Shown here in pieces: positions 12,242 to 52,642 of a stretch of DNA of 64,000 nt. The translations under genes and the position numbers were made by a program. The stretch is taken from NCBI GenBank assembly GCA_012862575.1, contig BLSF01000021.1, forward strand, positions 186,001 through 250,000, given 5' to 3'. Positions within the stretch are counted from its first letter, which is position 1. Each line of letters opens with the position of its first letter. Below the pieces are notes generated by a model. That model saw only the letters and a list, made by a program, of their open reading frames with translations, was not told the origin of the DNA and searched no databases. Origin of the DNA: Parietichytrium sp. I65-24A (lineage: Eukaryota > Sar > Bigyra > Thraustochytrida > Thraustochytriidae).

Positions 12242-15200
12242 TTAGCCTGTCTTGAAATTGTGCAAAACATTATCCACGCGGCGATAGGTGTCGTTGAGAC
12301 TGTTTTGAATCTCCCTTTTAAAAGTCTCTGCAGCCTCCTCGTCGGTCCTGTCCAGCGCGAGCTTGTCGCACATGTAGCGAATATCTTGAGCACAAGTCAA
12401 CTCCGGCATGCCCGCCGGGATCATCAGACGGAATAGGTTAATGAGGGAATTGCCATGCCTTCGTAGAATGTTATACGCTCGGCAGCACAGATCCACAAAT
12501 GTCAAGAACGGCTTATCGTTCTTTCCACCCATCACAAAGGCCATCTCCTTGGTGAAGACAAAAGGAGTTCGCTCGCGCTTGAGCCCAAATTTACTCTTGA
12601 AGTGGCCGAGAAAGTGACCAAAATCAATGTGAAAGAGCCGGCCATCTCGCTTGATCATAATATTGTCAGCATGGCGATCTCCTATGCCCATCACATACGT
12701 CGCAACGCAGTAACCTGCACACGACTGCACAAAGTTATCCACGACCTTCGAAAAGTCTTGGCCTGCGTTGCAATCCTGAAGCCAGATTCGCAGAGACCTG
12801 GCGCTCAGAGCGCCGAGCTTCCCATGCTTCTTCTGAATTCCAGCAGTGGTTTCGGAATTGGTCACGATTTCAAGCATCCCCAGCTCGTCCCCAGTGGAAA
12901 TGCAGCCGTAAAGAGTCATTTTGAGGTCCAAGCCCTCGTCAAGCCAAAGCTGATTCATGATACGCAGCATTTGCAGCGTCATCTGGTCCTGTCTGAGGTC
13001 GTCTCCGCATTTGAACATTACCAGAGTTGATTCTCCTCCACCTTCTTGCGGGTCCACGGAGGAGAATTTGAGCCACAGCGGCTTCTTTTTGGAGTTCATC
13101 ACCTTACAGCTCGAAACGACCATTTCGCTTAGCACAATTTTCGGGTTTAAGCAAAGCTGAAAGGACGGTGGAAGATGCACGTTCACCTTCCCGAGCTCTT
13201 CACGGACAAAATTTAAACGATCGACCTTTGAAGAAAATTTGTTCTTGGTCACCCCTACAGCAACCTGCTTGAGCAGGTTCTGCACGTCAACCTGCTGACT
13301 CAGATCTTGGAGGTGCATGGGGCTTGAGTTGCCCAGGTAGGCACGGAGCATGAGGCCGTATCTTGGCGCGAATCTCTTGTTGTGCATCTCTGCCCTCAGC
13401 GACCAGAAAAAGCGAGTCCCAATTTCACGAGGATTCTGCCAGGCCCTCCGCAGAAGAAACCGCGCCAAAGACGACTCATGATAAGGCTCGTACTTGAGAA
13501 CCTGAATAAGCTGCATCATGAGCTCCAAAAGCTCTTCGTCGCTCACCGCCTCTAAGCATCGAACGGCAAACTCGCGTACCCTGTAGTCGCCCTGTACACA
13601 GTCCAAGAGTTCAAGAGCCTGAAGCGTACCAGGCGACTTCCATTCCCCGAGAAGCTCCAGAGCTTCTTCGCGCTGTTCTGCGTTGGTCCAGTCCACAGCA
13701 AACATGACTCTTGGAAGAGCGGTCGGGAGGTTCATCAACTTGTGCCGATCATCCCACAAGAGAGCCTTGTCTGTATCATTGATAGAATACACTTCAATGG
13801 AGTCCATCATTAGTATTGCAAACCCGGCTTCTGAAACCTCAGCCGGTATGTCCACATCAGTCCGAAAGCGACGCTTTTCGGACTGGCCTGAAGGACTCGA
13901 CGAACCCCACTTGAGTCGGCTCAGAATACCACTTTTCTTGCTGCCAGACGAGGGACTCCGTTTATGGCCCTTTCCGGAACTCGACGTGATACCAGAGAGA
14001 TCTGCGCTCGTATGAACGGTGAGGCTCTTGTAACTATTGACACCGAGCATAGACTCGTCCACCGAACCCACGGAACTCAACGAACTTACACGCGAGTGAA
14101 AAGATGTTGACGAGCTTGAATATGCAGACAAACCCGGCGTCTCTACATCTCTGCGCGCTACGGGTGGTGGCAAGGGAAAGTACAGTGGACGCAGGAACTC
14201 GTCAAACTCTAGAACAATCCTCGCATTCCCCTCCAATGGGGTATTCAGACAGAAGAGCCGCTTTTCCGCACTTTGCCGTGGCCACAACACAAGCTCATGC
14301 ATACCACTACGAAAGACATGGCGCTGATCGTAAATCTGAATGCTCGCGCCTGCAAGTATTGCTCCAGATAGATCCGCTGTGCCGGGAGCAACCGGCGGTG
14401 GTGTCGTTACCAAGATCAACGTCGGGTCCGCGCCGAGAGGAGATTGTTGCACCTCGCTTCCAGAAAGCTTCGTCAAGTCGTACAATGTTACGCATAATCG
14501 GGTCGACAGAGGCAGGCTAGAAATAGGAGTGTCAAACCACAGCATTTCTCCCAGGCGAACTGAGAAGCTATCTGGCTTAAATGGCTTGGTGAACTTTGTT
14601 TCGATGGACTGCGAAGCATACACAAGTTGGAAACGCAGACAGAGAGACTCGCAGGACTCAATCTTGCTCAGCCACTGGGTATCTTGAACTCCGATGATGT
14701 TTATACGAAATGGCCATCCTCCTTTCGCAGGCAACATATTTCCCGTGCTCACTTCCTCCCAGGTGTCTTTCACAAGAAGAGATTTTTTGGTGACCTCCAG
14801 CATCATCCGAGACAACTCCTTCGGACTGATGCGCGGTATCCCAGGCAAATCCTCCGGCTCCAGAACTTCGGGAAGCGGGGGAGGTGGCGGGATATTGTCG
14901 TAAAACTCATCGTAGTCATTGTTATTCGGGCTCACAGCGAGACCGCTTGGTATGTCGGCTTCTTTCTCTTTCAGGTTGTGCAATGCGGCGTCAGAATCGT
15001 CCTCTGTGCTCATGATTGTGGAATCCGAAGATATGGATGCCGCGCGGGACGCGAATCTAGAGTTTGAGAATTTCAAAGCATGCGCGCCAGAGCCGTTTGA
15101 GGACGGTGGACACCGCAAGTCCACCAGGGTAGTTGTCATTCGGTGCACCGCAGCTTCCCCGCGGCACAAGTGCGCAATATACTTGTACTGCCGTAATGGG

Positions 15201-18200
15201 ATGTCCCTATACACGAGAAAATCGTTCCTTGATTGAATCTTCATGGCATACACATCGGGGCCAGAAATGTCAATAACACGACCAGACTTCTCGGCATTTT
15301 GAAACGCCTTTTCTACGACTTGCGCAACCGTACTGTTCGTGGTGGCTAGCACGGTGGTTTCCCTGATTTGTTCATCCAGTCCAATGATTTTGATCAAGAT
15401 CTTGCTGCTTGCGCCCATCAGGTCGGGGCGTGTGGAAGGAATCAAGTACACCGGCCAGCACTCGTACAGAACATGAATATCAGCCATACTCAAGCCAACC
15501 TGCTCATAAACCGTCAATGCATGAATGCTCTCTTGATCGCGGACCTCATCGTTCTTGCCGAGCCCTGCAAGGGACTCAATGGACGCTGTGATCCACTCAA
15601 GCTCCTGCGGCGCCATCAGGTGCCTCCGAGAAGATTTTTGCCTGTAGTTGGCAAGGGTCGGCCTCCCGTTCTCAGGGATGGTATCCCTTATTTCTACGTC
15701 CAGGGAGTCGTCTCCGAGTCTGTCTGCGGTCATGGAGCCCGAGTTGAACACGTTCCTCGATGACTGGCTGATCGAATTTCTGGTTTCTAAAGATGCTCTA
15801 CGCATTCGCGAAGAGACCTTGTTGACCACGTCGCGCTTAATTTGGGGACAATCAGCTAAAAAGGTTCGAAAAGCTGCTCCATCCAACACAATGCATCGAC
15901 ATGGACCTTCCTTGACAATCACTGTGGCAGACCGCCGTTCGCGATGAAGGATTGCGATTTCTCCAAAGTACTCCTTCGGCCCCATGACCATTTCTTTCTT
16001 TTTGTGGCCAGCTTCCGCCGTCGCGGCGCCATCGATTGCCGCTCCAGAGGGCACCTCCACCTTCACTAATCCTGACTCGATGATGTAAAATGACGTTCCC
16101 ATGTCCCCGGCCCGTACGATGGCTTCGTTGGTTGAATAAGTCTTATACCTGCATAAGGCCGCTATTGCCTCGAGCTGCTCCCGAGGTACACTTTCGAATA
16201 AGGGTATTTGTTGAAGTGCATCAGCAGATTTTCTCCAAGCTATCCAGGAAGAAGACTCCTGGGCGCCTGGAACTGCATCCAAAAAGGTCGCAAGGTCGTC
16301 GAAAGCTAGAACGAGGGCAACCAGCCCTTTCGTGGAGACAAGGCTATACTGTCTTGGTTCTGCGCTGGAGAGGCCCTCTTCCCCCACGCAATCCCCGGCA
16401 CGAAGATAAGTGTTTCTCTCTGGTATGTGTGCTTCTCCAGACACGATAGCCAGGAACTCGTTGCACTCGTCCCCGTGGCGAAAAATTATTTCGTTGGAAC
16501 GGTATTGTTTGTAGGAGAACAGGCTTGCAAATATATCCATGTGATCTGAGCAGAGCCTTGTAACACTTGCAATACTGCACATTGGGCCGCGCTTGCTTCG
16601 AAGATGGGCCATTTGTGTGAGTTGCTCGCAAACGGTGGGGTATGCGTCTTTTAGCTTGACCAGGCCTTCTTTTCCGCATACGATCAACGTTGAATCGTCC
16701 ACACTCCTAAATCCCACCTTGTGGCGCGCGTCATCGCCATCCAGCGCAAACCTATCCCCGAACCACTGACCTGCTGCGACGACCATCAAGTGCTTTTGCG
16801 CATATGTAACCTCTGTTTTACCTTGCACCACGACGTACAGAGCTAAGAGGGGGTCTGCGACTTCTTCATCATAGATAACCTGCCCCGCTTTGAATCGCTG
16901 CACGTGGAACAAGGACTTGTCGTGGAGAAGCTTCGGGATGTCATCTTCAGTCAGGCCGGCAAGATGAAACAGGATTCTGAAGAATAGCAAGTTGCGAATA
17001 TCCACGACGGCCTCTCCATGGTCAAGCTCGTTCAACGGGACAAACTCAACTTGAGCTGAAGGGTCGTTCTTATACATCTTGCTTTTCTTTCGAATAGGCA
17101 GAACAGCAGGCGGCGCCTCGCTTGGATCTCCTTCTGGGAGTCCTTCAAAGTCCGAAAGCCTGCCGCCGCTTTCTTCGTTGCCTAGTTCCTGAGACGTGGG
17201 ATCTTCGACTTCTTGAATCTGGGAGGGGTGAGTAATGTTAACCACTTTGAGGTAGTTGCACGGGACGACGCCCTTTTTGCCCTGGTCATTCTGAGCCATC
17301 CACCACTCCATCCCCTTGACGGGGGTGACCCACAGGAAGTCACCTTTCGTGAAGCTTAGCTCTCCTTTCTCGCGAGCGTAAAAGTCATACTGACAAATTG
17401 CCACAGATCCCAAATCCTTGTCCTCGTCGGACTGGCTGAGAGCGTCGCTCTCCGCGCTTGACTCCTCTTCGGCGTCACTGTAGTCCTTTTCTTCCTCTGG
17501 AACTCTACTTGCCGAGTCAAATTGTGGATTCACACTTTCAAAGCTTGCTGATTTCGTGACGGGATGTTCGGTGCTTTCGTCCTCGTCGCTCCCCTCCTCC
17601 TCCTCCTCCTCCTCCCCAGAGCTGTCAACAATACTCACGTAGTTGTACGGAACGAGTCCAGTCTCTCCGTCCTTCTCAGCGACCCACCACTGCTCTCCAT
17701 CCACTTTATGTACATATAAATCGTCGCCTTGATTGAAGGATAGCTGTTGCGAATTTTCCGCATTGAAATTAAAGAGTCCGACTGCAAGCACAAACTCTTG
17801 CTCGTCATCGTCCTCATCGGAATCCTCGACATTTTCTTCCTCATCTCCGTTAATCCCGCCGAAATCACCATGGGCATACCCGCGAGCTTGGTCCTCTGCC
17901 CCAGATTCACTCGCAATGTGGTTGGATACCTTGCGAAGTAGCTCGCTCTCCCCTCTTCCGCTGCCTCCCACCGCCTCCTCCGTACTCCGCTTGCCGCTGA
18001 CGATCAGAGTCGAAAGCTCTTGCGGATCCCAGTCTACGGGCTTGAGCTTTAGATAGTTTCGAGGCAGGAAACCAAATTTCCCGTTCAAATTTGCGGGCCA
18101 CCAGTCCTTCTGGTCCCGGGGACTGACCAACACTATGTCTCCTGCCGATATTGACAACACCTGGTTGCTAGGATTCCCTGCAAAGTCATACAGTGCCACC

Positions 18201-18268
18201 GCCCACCTGTCCTGCTCCTGTCTGCCGGTGCTGCCATTTCTCCTCCCGCCGCCATTTGTATCAGACAT
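12242..18268 (-). CDS. Class I phosphoinositide 3-kinase with three SH3 and three cyclic-nucleotide-binding domains
   Basis: One uninterrupted frame of 2008 residues. Order: SH3 at about 21-76 (ALYDFAGN, WWPAN), 159-214 and 287-344, separated by acidic linkers. Three cNMP-binding folds follow at about 450-545, 575-665 and 684-805. The third has a good phosphate-binding cassette (FGE at 768-770, RRSATV at 778-783); the first two are degenerate. Next come a Ras-binding-like domain (about 950-1055), a C2 domain (about 1183-1370), a Ser-rich insert, a helical domain (about 1520-1700) and the kinase (about 1725-1990). The kinase has [20 protein letters not shown], and a basic activation loop KSKFGLKRER. 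That loop is typical of class I enzymes, which make PI(3,4,5)P3 from PI(4,5)P2. No adaptor (p85)-binding domain is seen; the SH3/cNBD array takes its place. Nothing suggests a frameshift. Confidence 0.93.
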   Translation of the reverse strand: MSDTNGGGRRNGSTGRQEQDRWAVALYDFAGNPSNQVLSISAGDIVLVSPRDQKDWWPANLNGKFGFLPRNYLKLKPVDWDPQELSTLIVSGKRSTEEAVGGSGRGESELLRKVSNHIASESGAEDQARGYAHGDFGGINGDEEENVEDSDEDDDEQEFVLAVGLFNFNAENSQQLSFNQGDDLYVHKVDGEQWWVAEKDGETGLVPYNYVSIVDSSGEEEEEEEGSDEDESTEHPVTKSASFESVNPQFDSASRVPEEEKDYSDAEEESSAESDALSQSDEDKDLGSVAICQYDFYAREKGELSFTKGDFLWVTPVKGMEWWMAQNDQGKKGVVPCNYLKVVNITHPSQIQEVEDPTSQELGNEESGGRLSDFEGLPEGDPSEAPPAVLPIRKKSKMYKNDPSAQVEFVPLNELDHGEAVVDIRNLLFFRILFHLAGLTEDDIPKLLHDKSLFHVQRFKAGQVIYDEEVADPLLALYVVVQGKTEVTYAQKHLMVVAAGQWFGDRFALDGDDARHKVGFRSVDDSTLIVCGKEGLVKLKDAYPTVCEQLTQMAHLRSKRGPMCSIASVTRLCSDHMDIFASLFSYKQYRSNEIIFRHGDECNEFLAIVSGEAHIPERNTYLRAGDCVGEEGLSSAEPRQYSLVSTKGLVALVLAFDDLATFLDAVPGAQESSSWIAWRKSADALQQIPLFESVPREQLEAIAALCRYKTYSTNEAIVRAGDMGTSFYIIESGLVKVEVPSGAAIDGAATAEAGHKKKEMVMGPKEYFGEIAILHRERRSATVIVKEGPCRCIVLDGAAFRTFLADCPQIKRDVVNKVSSRMRRASLETRNSISQSSRNVFNSGSMTADRLGDDSLDVEIRDTIPENGRPTLANYRQKSSRRHLMAPQELEWITASIESLAGLGKNDEVRDQESIHALTVYEQVGLSMADIHVLYECWPVYLIPSTRPDLMGASSKILIKIIGLDEQIRETTVLATTNSTVAQVVEKAFQNAEKSGRVIDISGPDVYAMKIQSRNDFLVYRDIPLRQYKYIAHLCRGEAAVHRMTTTLVDLRCPPSSNGSGAHALKFSNSRFASRAASISSDSTIMSTEDDSDAALHNLKEKEADIPSGLAVSPNNNDYDEFYDNIPPPPPLPEVLEPEDLPGIPRISPKELSRMMLEVTKKSLLVKDTWEEVSTGNMLPAKGGWPFRINIIGVQDTQWLSKIESCESLCLRFQLVYASQSIETKFTKPFKPDSFSVRLGEMLWFDTPISSLPLSTRLCVTLYDLTKLSGSEVQQSPLGADPTLILVTTPPPVAPGTADLSGAILAGASIQIYDQRHVFRSGMHELVLWPRQSAEKRLFCLNTPLEGNARIVLEFDEFLRPLYFPLPPPVARRDVETPGLSAYSSSSTSFHSRVSSLSSVGSVDESMLGVNSYKSLTVHTSADLSGITSSSGKGHKRSPSSGSKKSGILSRLKWGSSSPSGQSEKRRFRTDVDIPAEVSEAGFAILMMDSIEVYSINDTDKALLWDDRHKLMNLPTALPRVMFAVDWTNAEQREEALELLGEWKSPGTLQALELLDCVQGDYRVREFAVRCLEAVSDEELLELMMQLIQVLKYEPYHESSLARFLLRRAWQNPREIGTRFFWSLRAEMHNKRFAPRYGLMLRAYLGNSSPMHLQDLSQQVDVQNLLKQVAVGVTKNKFSSKVDRLNFVREELGKVNVHLPPSFQLCLNPKIVLSEMVVSSCKVMNSKKKPLWLKFSSVDPQEGGGESTLVMFKCGDDLRQDQMTLQMLRIMNQLWLDEGLDLKMTLYGCISTGDELGMLEIVTNSETTAGIQKKHGKLGALSARSLRIWLQDCNAGQDFSKVVDNFVQSCAGYCVATYVMGIGDRHADNIMIKRDGRLFHIDFGHFLGHFKSKFGLKRERTPFVFTKEMAFVMGGKNDKPFLTFVDLCCRAYNILRRHGNSLINLFRLMIPAGMPELTCAQDIRYMCDKLALDRTDEEAAETFKREIQNSLNDTYRRVDNVLHNFKTG

Positions 18269-30474: not shown

Positions 30475-31974
30475 ATGGCGAATACGCAGGATGGGCAGGC
30501 GCTGATGGCAGAGGTAGTGGCGCCTCGTAGCGGTAATGATGAGGAGCTGTTCGTGAGCGAGGAAGAGCACGAGCTGAGCGAGGAAGAGGCGCAGAGCGGA
30601 CTGGCGAAGACGCTGTCGGGGCTGGGGTCAATAGTGCGGTGGGTGAGCGACAGCTTGGGTGGGAAACAGCATGAGAGCAAGCTGGTGTCGAATCTGCGGA
30701 AATCTACCATGTTTAGATACTGCTCGGAGAGCTCGCGGCTGATGCTGGCGAATAGCATGGAGCTGGAGACGTTTAAGAAGGGTGACGTGCTGATGATTCA
30801 AAGCGAGCCTCAGAAAAGCGCTATTGTGGTGGTGGATGGCTCAGTGGCCAGGCTCCGCATCTTTGACAATCAGCTGCACCACATGGGCACGATGGGGAAT
30901 ACGGGTAGCGGATCCACGATTGGTATGCTTCACTTGATGCGCGAGGAGAAAACCTTTGCGACGGTCCGAGCGCTGACCGACGGAGCTTGCTTCAGAATCC
31001 AAGCAGACGTCTTCCGAGAGCTCCTGGAAGAATCTCCTGAATTCGCCCAGGAGGTTATATTTTCGCTTTGCAAAGAAGTGAGAGCACACACCAGGCTTCA
31101 ACGAACTCCGCTGTTCTTGCAGTCCGGGAAAGCCATGCCCGCCGAGCCGCTGCCGTGGTTTGCTATTTCTTGCGCGGCCGCTATCGAGTCTTTCTACCGT
31201 AGCGGTCTTAATTCCATTCTCAACGCTCAGCTTTCAGGTCAACCTCGAGGAAAGCTGTTTCCAAACATGCACGTTCAGTTGCCGACAAGAGTGGTGTATA
31301 TCCTTGGGTTCAAGTCCTTGCGAAACATGTTAGACAGCAGAGTACAGATTAGTGAATTTGACAATCCTGAATTGGTAGGACTCGGGCTTGCTATCCTTCC
31401 CGGAGTGATCATGACCCCGATCAGCTCTCTGCTGGAGGCCTGCAATGCAGGAAACACCAACAAAGAGGCACTCCAACTCCGCTGGACGAGAGGCATAGTC
31501 CCTCGCTGTGGCCGTGAAGTCATCTTTGGAATCGGCATTAACCAGCTTTCGGACTTTTGCGAAGAGCGTATGGAGATTTTCGAGTCCCAAAAGCTGAAAA
31601 ACATGGGTGGAAGCTTGGTGGCAGGTGTTTTGTCAGGGTATTTTAGTCACATTCCGCACAATCTCTCGACACTAAAGTTGCTCTACCCTCAAAAGTCGTA
31701 CCGGGAACATTTTGCGGACCTTCAACGCCCATGGAAGACCTGGTTCGATTCAGAAGTAGCACCAATGGGAGTGAACGAGAAGAAAGGCGGCTTCTCGCTA
31801 CGGAATCTCATTCGCTCAATCGCGGTACCAACGTTGACCTGCGTACTTCCAAAGGGTTCATTGATTCGCACTACCCAGATTGCAGGCTCCTTCGTGATCA
31901 TCAACTCCACTATGAATGCGCTTTCGCACATTAACGTGAATGTCTCGGTGTCTCGCACACCAAGCTCGGCGTAG
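30475..31974 (+). CDS. Cyclic-nucleotide-binding-fold protein fused to a mitochondrial-carrier-like domain
   Basis: One exon, 499 residues. An acidic N-terminus (about 1-45) is followed by a cNMP-binding fold (about 75-205: MFRYCSESSRLMLANSMEL, FKKGDVLMIQ, VVVDGSVARL). Its phosphate cassette is degenerate (IGMLHLMREEKTFATVRA, lacking FGE and the usual Arg), so it may no longer bind cAMP/cGMP. The rest (about 225-480) looks like a divergent SLC25-type carrier with repeated half-motifs: GLGLAILPGVIMTPISSLLEA, RWTRGIVPRCGREVIFGIG and SLVAGVLSGYFSHIPHNLS. Mitochondrial carriers exchange metabolites across the inner membrane. The carrier assignment is moderate because the PxD/ExxK signatures are weak. 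The fusion suggests a regulated or scaffold-like carrier. Confidence 0.72.
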   Translation: MANTQDGQALMAEVVAPRSGNDEELFVSEEEHELSEEEAQSGLAKTLSGLGSIVRWVSDSLGGKQHESKLVSNLRKSTMFRYCSESSRLMLANSMELETFKKGDVLMIQSEPQKSAIVVVDGSVARLRIFDNQLHHMGTMGNTGSGSTIGMLHLMREEKTFATVRALTDGACFRIQADVFRELLEESPEFAQEVIFSLCKEVRAHTRLQRTPLFLQSGKAMPAEPLPWFAISCAAAIESFYRSGLNSILNAQLSGQPRGKLFPNMHVQLPTRVVYILGFKSLRNMLDSRVQISEFDNPELVGLGLAILPGVIMTPISSLLEACNAGNTNKEALQLRWTRGIVPRCGREVIFGIGINQLSDFCEERMEIFESQKLKNMGGSLVAGVLSGYFSHIPHNLSTLKLLYPQKSYREHFADLQRPWKTWFDSEVAPMGVNEKKGGFSLRNLIRSIAVPTLTCVLPKGSLIRTTQIAGSFVIINSTMNALSHINVNVSVSRTPSSA

Positions 31975-44278: not shown

Positions 44279-47200
44279 ATGATGGCCGAACTGCCATGCA
44301 GGGAGTTTCCGTATCTTTTGAGTTGCGAGGTGAACTTGGAGGTAGCCATCAAGCTGCGCAGCCTCGACGGCGTACGACGCATGGGTGAGGTGTTTGTCGA
44401 GGCGAGACTATTCAACGGCGGATTCGCCAGCCATCTTCCGCCTCAGACGACGCATTATTGCGCCGAAGTCAGCTCTACGGGATCGGGGGCGCACGGGTCC
44501 ACAAGCCAAGTGGGACAGCGCGCCGTATGGGGCGAGTGGCTGATACTACCGCTTAAGTATTCCGAGCTGCAACTCAACGCCTGTGTGGTTCTGTCGGTCT
44601 GGAATGCAGCCGATGGTTTAGTCGGGCACGCCATTGCGGACTTGTTTGATGAGTGTGGGAGACTGCGCAGGGGCCGCGTGCAACTGCCGGTGAAGGAAAA
44701 CGTGGCGTTGGAGAAGGTGACAAAGTCGTGGAGCGGAAATGCCTCAAATGACAGTGCATCGTCCGGAATAGCTGCAGACCCAGGCGACTTTGAGGAGGCG
44801 GAGAGAAATCGCATATGGACTCTTGGAGAGAGATATAATCACGATGAAATGCTACGCCTCGGGTGGCTTGATGAGCTGGCAAGGAAAAGAACGCGCGAGA
44901 TCACCAGCTTCATCTCTGCGCGCCGGACGTCTACGCTGGCAATCAATGATGACATCCGAAGCGAAAACATGATGTTGACTGTAGAGTTGCCCTACTTTGG
45001 TCACCAGGTTGTGTTTGAGGAAAAGGCGTACTATAGCGAGACAATGGACGTGATTTTCTCGTCGCGCTCGCAGGAGCAGCAGCCGGAGAGAGCGAGTTTT
45101 CGCTCCCGCTCAACAAGGAATTTTTATACGGGCACGGCTGATGACGCCGCAAACGCGCTGCAAAAGACTTTTCCATGGGAGAACCAGTTATGCGTGGTAT
45201 ACGACCCAGAGATGGTGCATGCGCAGGGCCGCACCCTGGACACGAAGGAGACACTGGACCCCGTGGAGGAAAAGTACCGCAAGCTGAATCCTTCGATGGT
45301 CCGCGGCATCGTAGATCGGTCGCTAAAGCCGAACAAAGATGAGCGAGAACACATCCAGCAGATCATTCAGTCGTCTGTGCGCTTGAATCGTAAGCACCAA
45401 GATCTATTGTGGAAATTCTGTTACTCACTGGTAAATGACAAAAAGGCGCTCGTCAAATTCGTCATGAGTGTGAACTGGAACAACGATAGCGAGGTTCGTC
45501 AGGCGGAAGAGCTTTTGAAGGAATGGGTTCCGATTGATATTGCTGACGCGCTGCGTCTTTTGGGTGATGAGGCCGAATTTCGCAATGTTGTGGTTAGGGC
45601 TCACGCTATCAGGGTTCTGGACGTTGCGAGCGACTCAGAGCTGCTCCTCTATCTCCTTCAGCTTGTCCAAGCCCTTCGCTATGACGATGCCCACGAAAGC
45701 GAATCTCAGCCGGATGTAACTGGGGCAACCTCGTCCGCCGCGCCATCTCCGGCACCGCCAGTGTCGCCCAAATCCGGGTCTTCGCAAGGTGCCCGAGATC
45801 CTGGAACGCCCCCTGCGCCTCCCTCATCCCCATCGTCAGCTTCGAGCAAGTCCAGTCGCCTAGCACAAGCAGACGGCAAGTCATGGCGGCCTGGCCTCTT
45901 GGCCAAATTCCTCATTCGGCGCGCTATTAACAGTGAATCTCTTGTGTCTTTCCTCACATGGTATCTCTCAACGGAGGTGGAGCACAAGGAGAGTGGCTTG
46001 CTCTTTGGAAATGTTCACCACGAACTTCTGCACCAACTTCGGACAACCTCGCAAGGGCGAGCTCTGTCCATGCAGTTGACCGAACAAAGCAATTTTGTTA
46101 AAAAGATTATGAACATGGGCAAGGAGGGTCGCGGTAGAGCTGTTACGCGCCAGAATTACCTGCAACGGATGCTCAAGCAGCCGGATGGCAAATATCACGA
46201 GCTGTGCAGACTGCACACTCCTGTGATGCATCCTCTCTGTCCTTGGAAGCGAGTTGTCGGCGTCAACCCAGACTCACTAAAAGTGTTCAACAGCAAGACT
46301 CAACCTATCAAACTAGATTTGCTGATTGAGAGCCCGTCAGATGACACGGAGGTTTCGCCCGGGTTTTTCAAGGTGGGAGACGACCTTCGGCAAGATCAGC
46401 TCGTGCTCCAGCTTCTCGGAGTGATGGACAAGATGTTTAAGGATGTGAATCTTGACCTAAAGCTCACCTTGTACAGAGTATTGGCATTTTCCAACGACGA
46501 AGGGGTGACGGAATTTGTCAGTGGATCACACTCACTCTCGCAGATTCAAAAGAACTTTGGAACGATATCTGCCTTTTTTAAAAAACAAGCGAAAGAAAAA
46601 CATGCCGCCGAGGTGGAGCTGGCAAAGTCAAGTCACGCTGTGCAACGACAAGACTCCTCAGAGGTAGACGCAACGCAAGCGTGGACCGGAGGGAATAGAT
46701 CCCAGACCAATGTAAAGACTCGCTCTGAGAAGGAAGTCTACGACGAGCTGGTGAACAACTTTATCAAAAGCTGTGCTGGGTATTGCATGTGCACATACAT
46801 TTTATGTGTTGGAGGTAAGTCTCTTTCAATGCCCCAGCATCTTCCCTGGTGCACAGCTTGTACTAACTCGTGCATATTCTCGGCAATTTAGATCGACATC
46901 TGGACAACCTGATGATCAAAAGCTCTGATGGTTCACTATTTCACATCGACTTTGGATTTATCTTGGGACACGTAAGTCGCGCGCCATCATCAAAAATTCG
47001 AACTGCTTGGCTTTGGGGATTGAATGACTGACTCTAATGCTTTTTTCGTGGGCTATTGCAATACAGGATCCGCGAAGTTGGGCTGTCGGTCCTATTCGTC
47101 TAACAAGAGATATGGTACGTTGCAAGTCTTTCAAGCGTGGTTCCCCGTACTTGGACTGCATGTTTTGCTAACCTCTTTTTTCTCTGTCTCAGATTGATAC

Positions 47201-47504
47201 CATGGGAGGTCGCGGAAGCTTGGGGTTTGAAAAGTTCATATCCTATTGCTGCCAAGCGTACCGCATCTTGCGAAAAAACTCTGATCTCATTCTCAACTTG
47301 CTCTATTTGATGAAGGACTCCAAGATCGAGAATCTCTTCGATGATCACGAGGCTGTGATCAAGATTGTGCGAGACAGATTTGAGCTGGACCGATCGGACG
47401 AGAGCGCAGAAATCTGGCTGCTTGACAAACTCAACAAGTGCGAAGACACATTCATCACTGCGCTGAGTGATACCTTGCACAATGCAAATGTATTTTTCAA
47501 TTAG
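44279..47504 (+). CDS. VPS34: Class III phosphatidylinositol 3-kinase (Vps34)
   Basis: Four exons, 44279-46814, 46892-46971, 47067-47114 and 47193-47504 (introns 77, 95 and 78 bp), give 991 residues. A C2 domain (about 18-150) is followed by a helical PIK domain (about 330-600) carrying a Ser/Pro insert of about 55 residues. The kinase (about 650-985) has [16 protein letters not shown]; splicing restores [10 protein letters not shown], then [12 protein letters not shown] with MGGRGS after it. This class III activation loop lacks the basic class I patch. The ending ([23 protein letters not shown]) also matches Vps34. The enzyme makes PI3P for endosomal sorting and autophagy with Vps15/Beclin. 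All three introns cluster in the last fifth of the gene, inside the catalytic region. Confidence 0.95.
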
Positions 47505-47609: not shown

Positions 47610-50600
47610 TCAAGCTTCCCTCTGGTTGGTCGAACCCATCGACGCCGTGCGTTTCAGGTCGGATTGCGAGCCGGCAACTTCAGGCCCTTCTTTCGCGTCA
47701 AGAATCCCTTCTGTTTGCACATTGGACAAGCTTGCGGCTGTCTGCGAAGTCTTCAAAGGAGGGAGCTTAGTTCCCTCTCCGGTTCCGTCTTCAGACTTTT
47801 TGTTTGGAGCTAGCGCATCGCCAGAGCCCTTGGAGGGGGTTGTGCTTTGCCTCCTTTTTTTGTTTTTCCTTTTCACCGTGTGAGTCTTGTCCATGTGAGT
47901 ACAGTTCCGACAGATACTTGTGTTGAAGCGCAACGGCTCAAATTCATCGCACATCTCGCAAGCAGCGCAACCGTAGAATTGCATCTCGTTCTTGCCCTTT
48001 GCTTCGGCTTCAGCGGCATCACCTCCTTGAATCTCGCCCCCGGCAGCCAACTCTGCATCCTCAGCCTCTTTCATTTCCTCCATTTGCTTCAATATATATG
48101 CAGTACTAATATCTGCCTCATGCAGGGTGAAATTGAAGTAGTCTTTGGCAGTTTGTCTAGCCAGCAGCCTGTTGCTACTGCGGTTGAAAAAGCCTTTCAT
48201 CGTGTCCACTGTGCGCAAAACTCCTGCAACAACACTATCGGTTTTGGCCCGTATCATTTCGTAGTTCATCGGAGGTGGGTTGTGCTCGAGTACGATGCGG
48301 CCGTACGATTCTAAGCGGCGAATGCGGCCATCGGGCCCAGGCTCGTGATCTATCTGCCAGCGTGATCTGAAATTACAAACTTCGCAGCGAATGGAGCCTC
48401 TATCTAGAGGGCACCTATGTATGTTCTCGCAAAATCCATATGTGTCCCAGCATTTGAAATAGGTAGGGTACTGTCTCAGTATAAATGCATTTGCAGGGTC
48501 CGCTTTCACAGCTCGGAGGTAGGCGTTTTCAACGTCCTCTTGACTCTTGCATGGCTCAGAAACTGCCACTAAAATCTCCTTCCCTATGCAGATCGACGAC
48601 ACCTTTCCGACGGGCCGCTCCAGGCCGGGAGTTCCAAACACCTCAAGCTCAGCAAAGTGCAGATAGTTAGTACCTTCCAGTTGCACGCGAACGTAGCGTC
48701 CGGACGTGTTTGACGGCAGAGTCCACACTGAACGCCTTTTATTCTTTGAGAACTTCTTTTTGGCAGTGCAACACGAATAGGCGTTCACCAATTCGCGAGG
48801 AAACGGGCTGTTGCTCACCATTACCCAGCATGGAAATAGTCTTCGCGAAAAGTGATCTTCAGACGAACTGGAGTCCTTGGGTTTATCCTCGCGGTTCCAT
48901 AGGTGAATACTCTCAATAATTCCAATTCGGCCAAGATCAACTTCCCAGAATGCCTGGGCATCGACTGCGAAATGAACAATTTGCGTGTAATTAGTCTTCA
49001 AGAACGAACATGCAGAGTTCCTCTTGTGTCATGTGTCTACTTACCTTGTGTATGACAGCAGAATCGCTCTCCGTCCCCGCAACGATCTCCATTTACAGCT
49101 ATCTCCGACGTCCGTTTGTTATAAACGCTGCTCTGTTTCGTTTTTTTGTGCAAGGCAAGGTTTTGGGGAACGGAGTATAGGCAACGAACTCGGCGAGGCT
49201 TTCGGACAAACTTTCTTGTTGGCTCATGACCAATGCAGCCACTCTTATTCGATCCCCACGTGTATAATTCGCCCTCAGCGCTCGCGCAGGCAACGTTGCT
49301 GTAGCCGCAAGAGACCTGCTTAATAGGCACCTCGCTCAACTCGCGGACCAGATGGAATTTTGGACGGTCCTTGCCAAGGACCGACGATGGACCGGCCACA
49401 TAAACAATACCTCCCTGCGCCTTCTTGACACGATTTTGTCCAGTGCCTTCCCACCCATCGACAATTGCTGAGCAAATTGCGGTATGTGTACACCCACAAG
49501 ATACTTGCTTGACATGAACTCCAGCAACATGCAACGTGCGGACGAGGGTCGGGGTATCCACCACCGCATTGAGGGTCTTGCCTAAGCCAAGCCGACCAGA
49601 GTCTGCACATCCCCACATGAACAGGCGGCCATCTTCCGTCACCGCCCCGGTGTGAGAATTTCCGCACGAAACCTGTGTGATTCGGAATTGTTCAGAGAGC
49701 GGCAATCGAACTGGATAAGGGCAATAGCACTCGTACTCCCCGGTGATTGGCCCAAGACCAAGCTTGCCGGTATCACCGCCACCCCAAATGAACACCTCCC
49801 CCGACGATGCTACCGCCGCGGAATGCGAGAAGCCGCAGGAAACTTGGGAAATACGAAAGCTGGCAAGATCTTGAACCTGAGTGGGGAGGGCAATATCGTA
49901 TCGGGAAGCATTCGCCCGAGCCGCAGCTTCTGAGGCAGCAACCACGGCCACAATATTTCTCCGAGAATCATAGACTTGATCCATATTGTATTTTTCGCGG
50001 AGCTTTGCCTTTGCTCCGGTCTCTTTAGTCGTAATGTGTTGACGCATTCCCGGACCTTGACCTTGTCCAAGACGCCCAAAATTACCATCTCCCCAGGTGT
50101 ACAGCCCTCCGTTAGCATCCAGTGCGGCGACATGGAAAGCTCCTGCTTGTACCATCGTTAAAGCTTCATCCGCTTTTGAGAGAGGCTTTGGGCCCTCGCC
50201 ACGCTCAGTAACCAGAGTGAGGGCTGGCATTTGCTTGCCCAAATCACTGCCCTTCCGCTTGGACTTTCGTCTGCGCGATTTGGAAGGAGCACTATCGCAA
50301 GCTTCGAGCGATGTCCTCCAAAGCTTGTATTCAGAGTTATGAATCAGCTCTCTCTTGGCTCGAAGCTCACCCTTCTCGCGTTCAATCTCTTCTTTCCACT
50401 CAGCCTGTATTTTCTGTAGCGGTCTCCAAATGGATTTCGCGGTTTGTTCGATAAGGTCGGCCTTTTGCTGCTTTCGGTCTGCTCGCAGCGCCCAAATCTC
50501 TATCTCAGCGTTCCGATACGCTTTCATGAACTTGAACCCAGCCATCTTTGTCTCCACTTGTAAAGCATCGTGAAGAAGATGAAGCATTTGCTTCTTATTT

Positions 50601-52642
50601 ATTCCAGATGCATTGAGTCCCCTCATAGTGAGAGAGAGCGTCACGTCTTCGAAGCGCAACTTGGGTAACAAAATGTTTTCCATGTGCTGCATTTTCAAAT
50701 CTTCCACAGGACACTGTTCCCAAATTCCATAGTATTCATTGGTAACGAACTTGAGCTTGTCGTAGATTTCGTCTTCGGATTCTTCTAATTTCAGCTCTGG
50801 TTCAACAACGTCAGGCCATGGCGTGGAAGTCGGATGCACTGTCAGCATGAGCCCAGACCGGTGGGTGAATTGGCCGCTCGTTGTTTCCGATTTCTCACTT
50901 CCTGGCTTAGGTACCGGCACCCACCACTGATCTCGGCCACCCCAGGCCAGGATCTGGCCGGCATCAGTGAGCGCGAATGCGGTGTTGATCCCAACAGAAA
51001 CGTCGATCACTCTGCGACCCCAAAGTGCGGCACAATTGGGCGCGCACACAATATCAGTGAAAGGACTTTCCCACGCCTCTTCGTCGGAGTCATCTTCATC
51101 CTCAGATTCGGCTTCTTCTTCACCTTCAGGAACTCCTTCTCGAGCACTTTGGTCCGGCATCTTGTTCGAGGCGCCAAAGGCTTCGGCTTCCTCTTCCTCA
51201 CTATCGGGATCATCTTGTATGCCAAATTCTGATCCTCGAATGAGCTTATCGATCGTTGTTCGCGGATTGTTAGGAAAAAGAAGATCAAGGCGCTTCTCTC
51301 CATCCGAAAAGTCGTCTGCGATTGCTTGAAGCAATTCGTCGCGACCGGGTAGATTATTCGCCTCGCTAGCATCGTATTTTTGTTCTTCTAAGGCAAGCTC
51401 ACGCTCTTTCTTTTCGCGTTCTGTCTTTCTCGTCCGTCGACCAATTTTGGTCGGGGAGTAAACAATTGGGTACTTGGTGCGCTTCTTTAAACTCTTGTCC
51501 GCTTGACCGATGTTTCGGTACTTAATGTCTAGAACTCCGTTTGGCATTACTCGAGACTTCCACAAGTCTTGAATGACCTCAAATTGCTTGAAAACCTTGC
51601 TAGGCCTAGATGCTTCTGCAGTGAATTGCCCGTGAGCGCCAGCGCCGAAAGCGTACACTTGCCCGGCCACGTCCAGCGCATACATAAGCTCGCTGCGAGC
51701 TCTTTCTTTTGCAGCGAGCAAAGCCTCGTTTTTTTCGTCCTGTTCAGCTTGCCACTCCCGCCACGCTTTTGCCTGTGCCAACGCTTGCTCTTCTCTCTGT
51801 TCCTCTTCTTCGAGGATTTCTTCCAGCCTGCGCATCATGACAGCTTTTGGCGTTCGCTTGCCCATCTCAATACCGCGTTTCTCCAGCTCCCCGCGAATAT
51901 CCGAGAGCTGAAGCCAGATCTTTCGGAACTCCTTATACTCAATGTACCCACTTCGATCGGAGTCGTACTTTTTGAACAGCTTTTCGGCTTTTGCGTCTGT
52001 GAGTTGCAAGCCCAGATACTCAATGACATCTCGAAACTCGTCTTCGTCCACCTTGCCGGATTCGTCCTCGTCAAACAGTTTGAAAGCGTCCTTGGGCCCC
52101 AGCGCTGCAGACGGTGAGAAGCCAATAGTATTACCAGAGTTTGGGTCGCACGCGAAGAGAGCCGCTTTGAACTCCTCCAACCCCAGCGCTCCGGACCCAT
52201 CACTGTCCAGGGTCTTAAAATACCTCCTTGCTTTCGCCTCCGTCATCGTCACGCCAAGGACCGGAAGCATTGCAAAGAACTCTGTAAAGTCTATGAGCCC
52301 AGAGTCGTCCTGATCAAACTCCTCGAACAGATCTTCCGGCGTCTTCTTCAATATCTCATCCGCCGTGAGCGTCTTGCTCTCCGCCTCCTTGAGCCGCACT
52401 TTGCCTTCGAACAATTTCTTCGCTGCCGCCAGGTCCCTGTCTCGCATCTTCCCACTTGCCGTCAGAGAGCCCATTCCGCCGCCATCGCGCTCTTTGCTCT
52501 TCCGCTTTCGCTCTTGATCGTCCAATAGGTCTCTCTCCTCCAGCTTCTCCAGCAAATCATCCTCCTTTCCGCTTTTCCCTTTCGCATTCGCATTCGCCTT
52601 CGCGCTCCCTTCGCTGCCCTGCTTCTTGCTCCGCTTCCACAT
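47610..52642 (-). CDS. EF-hand, RCC1-repeat and F5/8C (discoidin-like) multidomain protein
   Basis: Two exons, 52642-49045 and 48964-47610, with an 80-bp intron (donor GTAAGTAG, phase 1), give 1650 residues. Four EF-hands sit at about 110-121, 146-157, 191-202 and 227-238, all with good Asp ligands. Coiled or acidic linkers and RCC1 blades follow (GQILAWGGRDQW, GGLYTWGDGNFGRLGQG, EVFIWGGGDTGKLGLG, RLFMWGCADSGRLGLG, ELYTWGSNKSG), each preceded by VSCG-x-x-H-type strands. The intron falls inside a galactose-binding-like domain: QNLALHKKTKQSSVYN is followed across the splice by AFWEVDLGRIGIIESIHLWNR. A Cys-rich knot (CAACEMCDEFEP, CRNCTHMDKTH) lies near the end. No signal peptide is present, so this is an intracellular Ca2+-responsive scaffold; RCC1 folds can act as GEFs, but that is unproven here. 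Confidence 0.87.

Follow-up and report, generated by a model that had tools for sequence, protein, structure and literature searches.

A class I-type PI3K fused to SH3 and cyclic nucleotide-binding domains

In the thraustochytrid Parietichytrium sp. I65-24A, one intact reading frame encodes a class I-type phosphoinositide 3-kinase (PI3K) that carries three SH3 domains and three cyclic nucleotide-binding domains (cNBDs) in the same chain. The gene lies on the minus strand at positions 12242-18268 of the window, i.e. the stretch of 64,000 nucleotides analysed here (assembly GCA_012862575.1, contig BLSF01000021.1, positions 186,001 to 250,000), and its complete open reading frame of 2008 aa reads SH3x3-cNBDx3-RBD-C2-helical-PI3K catalytic, where RBD stands for a Ras-binding-type domain. 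Judged from sequence, the SH3/cNBD/PI3K fusion is taken as one gene, and we grade it as real and uncommon. Direct gating of this single-chain enzyme by a cyclic nucleotide is plausible, albeit unproven; it is the best single reading of the architecture and is given about an even chance.

In animals, cAMP/cGMP and phosphatidylinositol 3,4,5-trisphosphate (PIP3) are separate messenger systems that are linked via intermediate proteins. If direct gating is true, a cyclic nucleotide site within the PI3K chain makes one messenger feed directly into the other. A further consequence would be a p85-free route to class I-type PI3K regulation, which bears on the control of this clade outside animals.

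Integrity of the frame and domain architecture

The fusion frame counts 2008 aa from the ATG and 2017 aa from stop to stop, with zero internal stops, and each domain exceeds its Pfam cut-off, which bears out the original prediction of one intact 2008-residue frame with SH3x3, cNBDx3, RBD, C2, helical and kinase domains. An artefact of the gene model or assembly, in which separate SH3/cNBD and PI3K genes share one frame, appears very improbable. Codon usage was scored in 34 windows of 60 codons after training on eight other frames of the 64,000-nucleotide window, and the fusion frame outscored the other five frames in 32 of them; the two exceptions, in which another frame scored better, were aa 781-840, the point that speaks for an artefact, and aa 1021-1080. 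In 7 of the 34 windows, including aa 781-840 at the end of cNBD3, the fusion frame's own score was zero or below. Four stretches between frames, assumed (but unproven) to be non-coding, reached at most -0.12 in every one of the six frames. A scan for a strong donor followed by a GT-AG intron (40-399 bases) that keeps the frame gave ten candidates across the whole frame, but none at the domain borders (aa 340-430 and aa 815-960). Together with the stop-free frame of 2017 codons, this argues against two genes, as do the mapping of the protein at 100% to a single place (contig C21) in the 42.5 Mb genome and the presence of a cNBD within one uninterrupted frame of a second PI3K on contig C7, the next PI3K relative of the fusion protein in the genome.

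The domains from SH3 to C2 were scanned with Pfam as separate pieces, the helical and kinase domains in the whole protein; all coordinates given here are on the minus strand. The SH3 domains occupy aa 24-74 (18047-18199; SH3_9, E 8e-11; SH3_1, E 2e-9; with an ALYDF motif), aa 165-214 (17627-17776; SH3_1, E 3e-11) and aa 293-341 (17246-17392; SH3_1, E 4e-13). They are followed by cNBD1 at aa 457-539 (16652-16900; cNMP_binding, E 7e-7), cNBD2 at aa 587-664 (16277-16510; E 8e-11) and cNBD3 at aa 709-805 (15854-16144; E 1e-16); a domain search had been proposed for these folds, and all three exceed the Pfam cut-off. The RBD (PI3K_rbd, E 5e-6) spans aa 954-1036 (15161-15409), the PI3K-type C2 domain (PI3K_C2, E 2e-11) aa 1211-1336 (14261-14638), the helical (PIK accessory) domain (PI3Ka, E 7e-45) aa 1494-1654 (13307-13789) and the catalytic domain (PI3_PI4_kinase, E 8e-61) aa 1750-1958 (12395-13021). 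The weakest passes among the separately scanned pieces were cNBD1 (29.6 bits, cut-off 27.5) and the RBD (27.0 bits, cut-off 22), and in the whole-protein scan PI3K_rbd reached just 22.6 bits. cNBD1 is also absent from the list of the genome-wide cNBD search, which has cNBD2 and cNBD3, and the RBD piece found no PI3K in PDB; both domains therefore rest on Pfam and position.

Two short motifs lie between the domains. RRASL at aa 823-827 (15788-15802), between cNBD3 and RBD, is presumably a PKA/PKG-type phosphorylation consensus; it is the one RRx[ST] motif observed in the protein, with 0.88 expected from shuffles, and alone is not above chance. A PPPPPLP stretch at aa 1127-1133 (14870-14890), between RBD and C2, may serve as an internal SH3 ligand.

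The kinase core is of class I type

The best PDB match of the fusion protein was p110-beta (E 2e-132, 446 bits). Among the best 60 of 574 PDB matches, 57 were named class I isoforms and three carried generic PI3K names (1e7u, 1e7v and 8so9, which we take to be p110-gamma), and no class II sequence occurred. The fusion kinase retains intact catalytic motifs (DRHADN and DFG) and an intact activation loop, KSKFGLKRERTPF (aa 1891-1903, 12560-12598). As predicted originally, the loop is class I-like, with both basic boxes, and it aligns with KSKFGIKRERVPF of p110-beta; judged from this loop, the output would be PIP3 from phosphatidylinositol 4,5-bisphosphate. The order RBD-C2-helical-kinase of class I PI3Ks is present, the RBD being recognized by Pfam only. 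Class II PI3Ks have C-terminal PX and C2 domains; the fusion protein stops after the kinase domain, and thus the PX-C2 tail of class II is missing. Vps34 was not the best match of the fusion protein, which does not point to class III. Domains, catalytic motifs and activation loop are thus shared with the class I p110-beta, -alpha, -delta and -gamma, whereas SH3x3 and cNBDx3 within the chain, and the lack of a reported adaptor-binding domain, set the fusion protein apart. By its sequence it is a class I-type PI3K that lacks the adaptor feature of class IA. 'Class I-type' is the careful name, because bikont sequences group with unikont class I without significant support according to Philippon et al. 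(PMC4617754; like the other papers cited by PMC number, drawn on in excerpt).

The Pfam scan of the fusion protein, considered up to an E value of 1, contained no adaptor-binding family, the class IA feature. Likewise, p85 inter-SH2 gave no match in the genome in a search made exon by exon and without a p85-bearing control genome; SH2 and SH3 matches numbered 4 and 52, respectively. Since p85 contacts p110 via its inter-SH2 and SH2 domains, the missing adaptor-binding domain and inter-SH2 match indicate that the SH3 part is not a fused p85, and the term 'adaptor' used for it originally does not hold in the p85 sense. A docking or intramolecular role of the SH3 part is more plausible.

A class III (Vps34-like) PI3K gene is located 26 kb from the fusion gene, on the plus strand at window positions 44279-47504. 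Its first long frame (44279-46891) matches Vps34 first, and near 46.85 kb its catalytic part is split between frames in the manner expected of an intron, with DRHLDN resuming in another frame.

One of the three cNBDs has a complete cassette

The genome-wide search gave 121 cNBD matches, of which 83 were used (80 fetched domains, full-length or nearly so and taken roughly best first, cNBD2, cNBD3 and one other cNBD of the window) while 38 partial or lower-listed matches were left out; with cNBD1 the comparison comprised 84 rows. The phosphate-binding cassette Glu and Arg were both present in 53 of the 84 aligned domains, and the pair was missing from the alignment in 31. In cNBD3 the cassette FGEIAILHRERRSATV is complete, with both Glu and Arg and with Ala, not Glu, two places past the cassette Glu. 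In cNBD2, Glu and Arg are present and followed by Gln-Tyr in the two places after Arg, where small residues are usual, and in cNBD1 Asp takes the place of the cassette (ribose) Glu. In alignments with PKG, cNBD1 and cNBD2 correspond to its third and fourth cNBDs (cNBD1 to the third of 5ezr). In malaria PKG, the CNB-C domain, with Asp in the Glu place, does not bind cGMP (PMC6628679). The nucleoside form of trypanosome PKA-R, an example of CNB folds switching ligand, carries Glu in place of the Ala and a polar residue instead of the Arg (PMC10959531); these changes are not present in cNBD3.

Judged by cassette residues, cNBD3 is the single complete cassette among the three and appears ligand-competent, cNBD1 probably cannot bind a cyclic nucleotide and cNBD2 is doubtful as a binding site. 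The original claim of three cyclic nucleotide sensors is therefore not borne out as worded, given the Asp of cNBD1 and the Gln-Tyr of cNBD2.

The other cNBD of the window is the only one in a 499-aa protein (30475-31974, plus strand); its cassette is without Glu and Arg.

cGMP or cAMP

At the selectivity position of cNBD3 stands a Ser (RSAT), which leans to cGMP, and RSAT is also found at two sites of 5dyk, a PKG entry. For PKG it has been described that replacing the selectivity Thr with Ser costs 4-fold in cGMP, compared with 27-29-fold for Ala or Val, and that isolated CNB-A prefers cGMP just two-fold (PMC3080414). The two nearest cNBDs to cNBD3 among those compared (L026 and L021) belong to proteins that combine three cNBDs with a protein kinase; the third nearest (L028) is in a 452-aa protein with two cNBDs and without a kinase domain, as a PKA regulatory subunit would be. 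Among the three single-domain PDB alignments listed for cNBD3, the best was with PKA RII-alpha (second cNBD, 48.9 bits), and the best 5dyk domain reached 27.7 bits. A cGMP-leaning reading of cNBD3, based on RSAT and on L026 and L021, was dropped in view of L028, which lacks a kinase, and of PKA RII-alpha as best PDB alignment. The chance of direct gating is unchanged by this, because it is independent of which nucleotide binds.

The PKG and PKA matches of cNBD3 differ from the fusion protein in their context. The entries 5ezr, 5dyk and 4rz7, which we take to be Plasmodium-type PKG, resemble it in having tandem cNBDs ahead of a kinase, but there four cNBDs are joined to a protein kinase and here three cNBDs to a lipid kinase. 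PKA RII-alpha, in turn, is a separate regulatory subunit of a protein kinase.

A second class I-type PI3K with cyclic nucleotide sensor domains

PI3K helical-domain matches were found in at least three places of the genome, i.e. the fusion gene, the Vps34-like gene and contig C7. The C7 frame (L012:2418-6452, 1344 aa) encodes WWx2-cNBD-GAF-C2-PI3Ka-kinase and is 42% identical to the fusion protein over 520 aa of helical and kinase domain; its best PDB match is p110-beta and its activation loop reads FKSKLGVKRERAPF. In its cNBD the cassette Glu and Arg are both present. Its GAF domain matches adenylate cyclase 1ykd (E 1e-24) and PDE2A (E 1e-23) and reads NKRGGAPFSEEDE, which fits the NKFDE motif of cyclic nucleotide GAFs. 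The NK...F...DE pattern is common to the PDE2A, 1ykd and C7 GAFs, but the C7 domain is joined to a PI3K and not to a phosphodiesterase (PDE) or cyclase. Hence, cyclic nucleotide sensor domains are present on both class I-type PI3Ks found in the genome. The original claim of a chain combining adaptor, sensor and kinase was right in that SH3, cNBD and class I-type PI3K domains occur together, but the fusion protein is not alone in its genome, given the cNBD and GAF of C7. Both proteins place a cNBD N-terminal of a class I-type PI3K core; C7 differs in that WWx2 replaces the SH3 domains, the cNBD is single, and the position expected for the RBD, immediately ahead of C2, is taken by a GAF.

A shared ancestry of the two PI3K cNBDs was considered but found no support. 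With self counted among the 84 rows, the C7 cNBD ranked 18th for cNBD3 and cNBD3 ranked 16th for the C7 cNBD, and the cNBD tree resolved little (of its 81 inner branches, 3 were starred and 44 open). A single fusion is thus without support, although an old fusion is not contradicted.

Proposed mechanism and alternative explanations

Under direct gating, the SH3 and cNBD part would form a built-in regulatory arm ahead of the RBD in an enzyme in which no p85-binding part was found. cNBD3, situated just before the RBD, would bind a cyclic nucleotide (cGMP or cAMP), and binding would shift its C-terminal helix and the linker that connects it with the RBD, which in turn would free or position the RBD-C2-helical-kinase core. 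cNBD1 and cNBD2 would chiefly serve as a relay that binds weakly or not at all. The SH3 domains may dock the enzyme on partners rich in proline or clamp the PPPPPLP stretch that the enzyme itself carries between RBD and C2, and Ras-family GTP is a possible second input. A wider proposal is that cyclic nucleotides directly gate the class I-type complement of this organism, i.e. both genes found, by way of two separately recruited folds (cNBD; cNBD plus NKFDE GAF) that replace p85 regulation, with PIP3 as a direct output of cGMP/cAMP; we hold this tentatively, at somewhat less than an even chance.

Several observations weigh against direct gating. A structural role of the array is conceivable, as two of its three cNBDs look impaired. 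The evidence on the nucleotide is split, given PKA RII-alpha as best alignment and the merely two-fold cGMP preference of CNB-A. The RBD appears in Pfam alone: in a single-sequence search against PDB the RBD piece found no PI3K but one irrelevant match (E 1). Since cNBDs are very common in this genome, their fusion to a PI3K tells less than it would elsewhere, and because the C7 cNBD and cNBD3 are not nearest relatives, the pair provides no evidence for one conserved fusion.

The main rival to direct gating is a ligand-free structural array, in which the cNBDs would be a non-signalling scaffold for spacing, dimerisation or protein contacts, with ligand control lost and the kinase driven by SH3 docking and Ras. 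The missing Glu of cNBD1 and the Gln-Tyr past Arg in cNBD2 fit such a scaffold, and the 31 of 84 domains without the Glu-Arg pair indicate that loss is common; cNBD3, however, is complete and the nearest of the domains to the kinase core, and in C7, the other class I-type PI3K, the cNBD cassette is complete and the GAF bears NKFDE. We consider the scaffold less likely than direct gating. Cyclic nucleotides might also act indirectly, by way of PKA or PKG phosphorylating Ser826 of RRASL, while the cNBDs merely place the enzyme near those kinases. The position of RRASL between cNBD3 and RBD would suit this, as would the cNBD-bearing protein kinases at 8 of 20 chosen cNBD loci of the genome, but shuffling the 2008 residues yields about as many RRx[ST] motifs (0.88 expected against one seen), and we consider indirect action improbable. 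The chance that cNBD3 binds some other ligand, comparable to the nucleosides bound by the trypanosome PKA-R CNB domains, is slight: CNB folds can change ligand (PMC10959531), but cNBD3 retains the Ala and Arg that the nucleoside form has lost. Direct gating by a cyclic nucleotide thus stays the preferred reading.

Relation to described enzymes

No PI3K with a cNBD or GAF was met in the titles or abstract beginnings listed by searches of open-access literature, and the original statement that no described enzyme of the order SH3-cNBD-PI3K was known agrees with the listings searched, which contained none. In the excerpted text of a ciliate phosphoinositide kinome study (PMC3823935) the words 'cyclic', 'cNMP' and 'SH3' do not occur, and the portions of the Phytophthora kinome (PMC3019232) and Plasmopara genome (PMC4594904) papers drawn on mention no PI3K of this kind. 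Relatives of the fusion were not confirmed in viral contigs or prokaryote genomes, as expected for a eukaryote gene. The closest idea met in this literature is p110-gamma in rods, which is bound to the CNGA1 channel, described as an anchor for the kinase (PMC4326362). There, too, a class I PI3K is physically linked to a cyclic nucleotide-gated protein, but as two separate proteins.

Cyclic nucleotide signalling domains in the genome and other features

Twenty cNBD loci were picked for long frames or closeness, i.e. not at random, and 5 of their frames were cut by the fetched ends. According to Pfam, 8 of these loci encode protein kinases (3 of them also with PP2C), 6 ion channels and 2 sulfate transporters, while 4 had no other family at E 1e-5. 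Such frequent cNBD fusion lowers the surprise of the PI3K fusion; it would also make real sensing likelier. Further genome matches, which speak in favour of direct gating, comprised 29 to the cyclase domain, 16 to PDE and 4 to the PTEN-type C2 domain.

Cyclase and PDE matches fell in equally long open frames, on one strand in each case, in four places (C41:204196-211554, C83:70479-76361, C31:267526-270981 and C17:401687-405919), which suggests cyclase-PDE fusion proteins. Among the cNBD loci, L099 and L101 encode multi-unit ion channels with a cNBD and a C-terminal RGS domain, and L102 and L104 encode sulfate-permease/STAS proteins carrying cNBDs. Elsewhere in the window, a 1201-aa protein with EF hands and RCC1 repeats is encoded on the minus strand at 49037-52642. 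Outside it, a frame of 5583 codons (C66:8562-22499) matched the PfaA model below cut-off, four times in its early part and three times in a later part, and is probably a large polyketide synthase.

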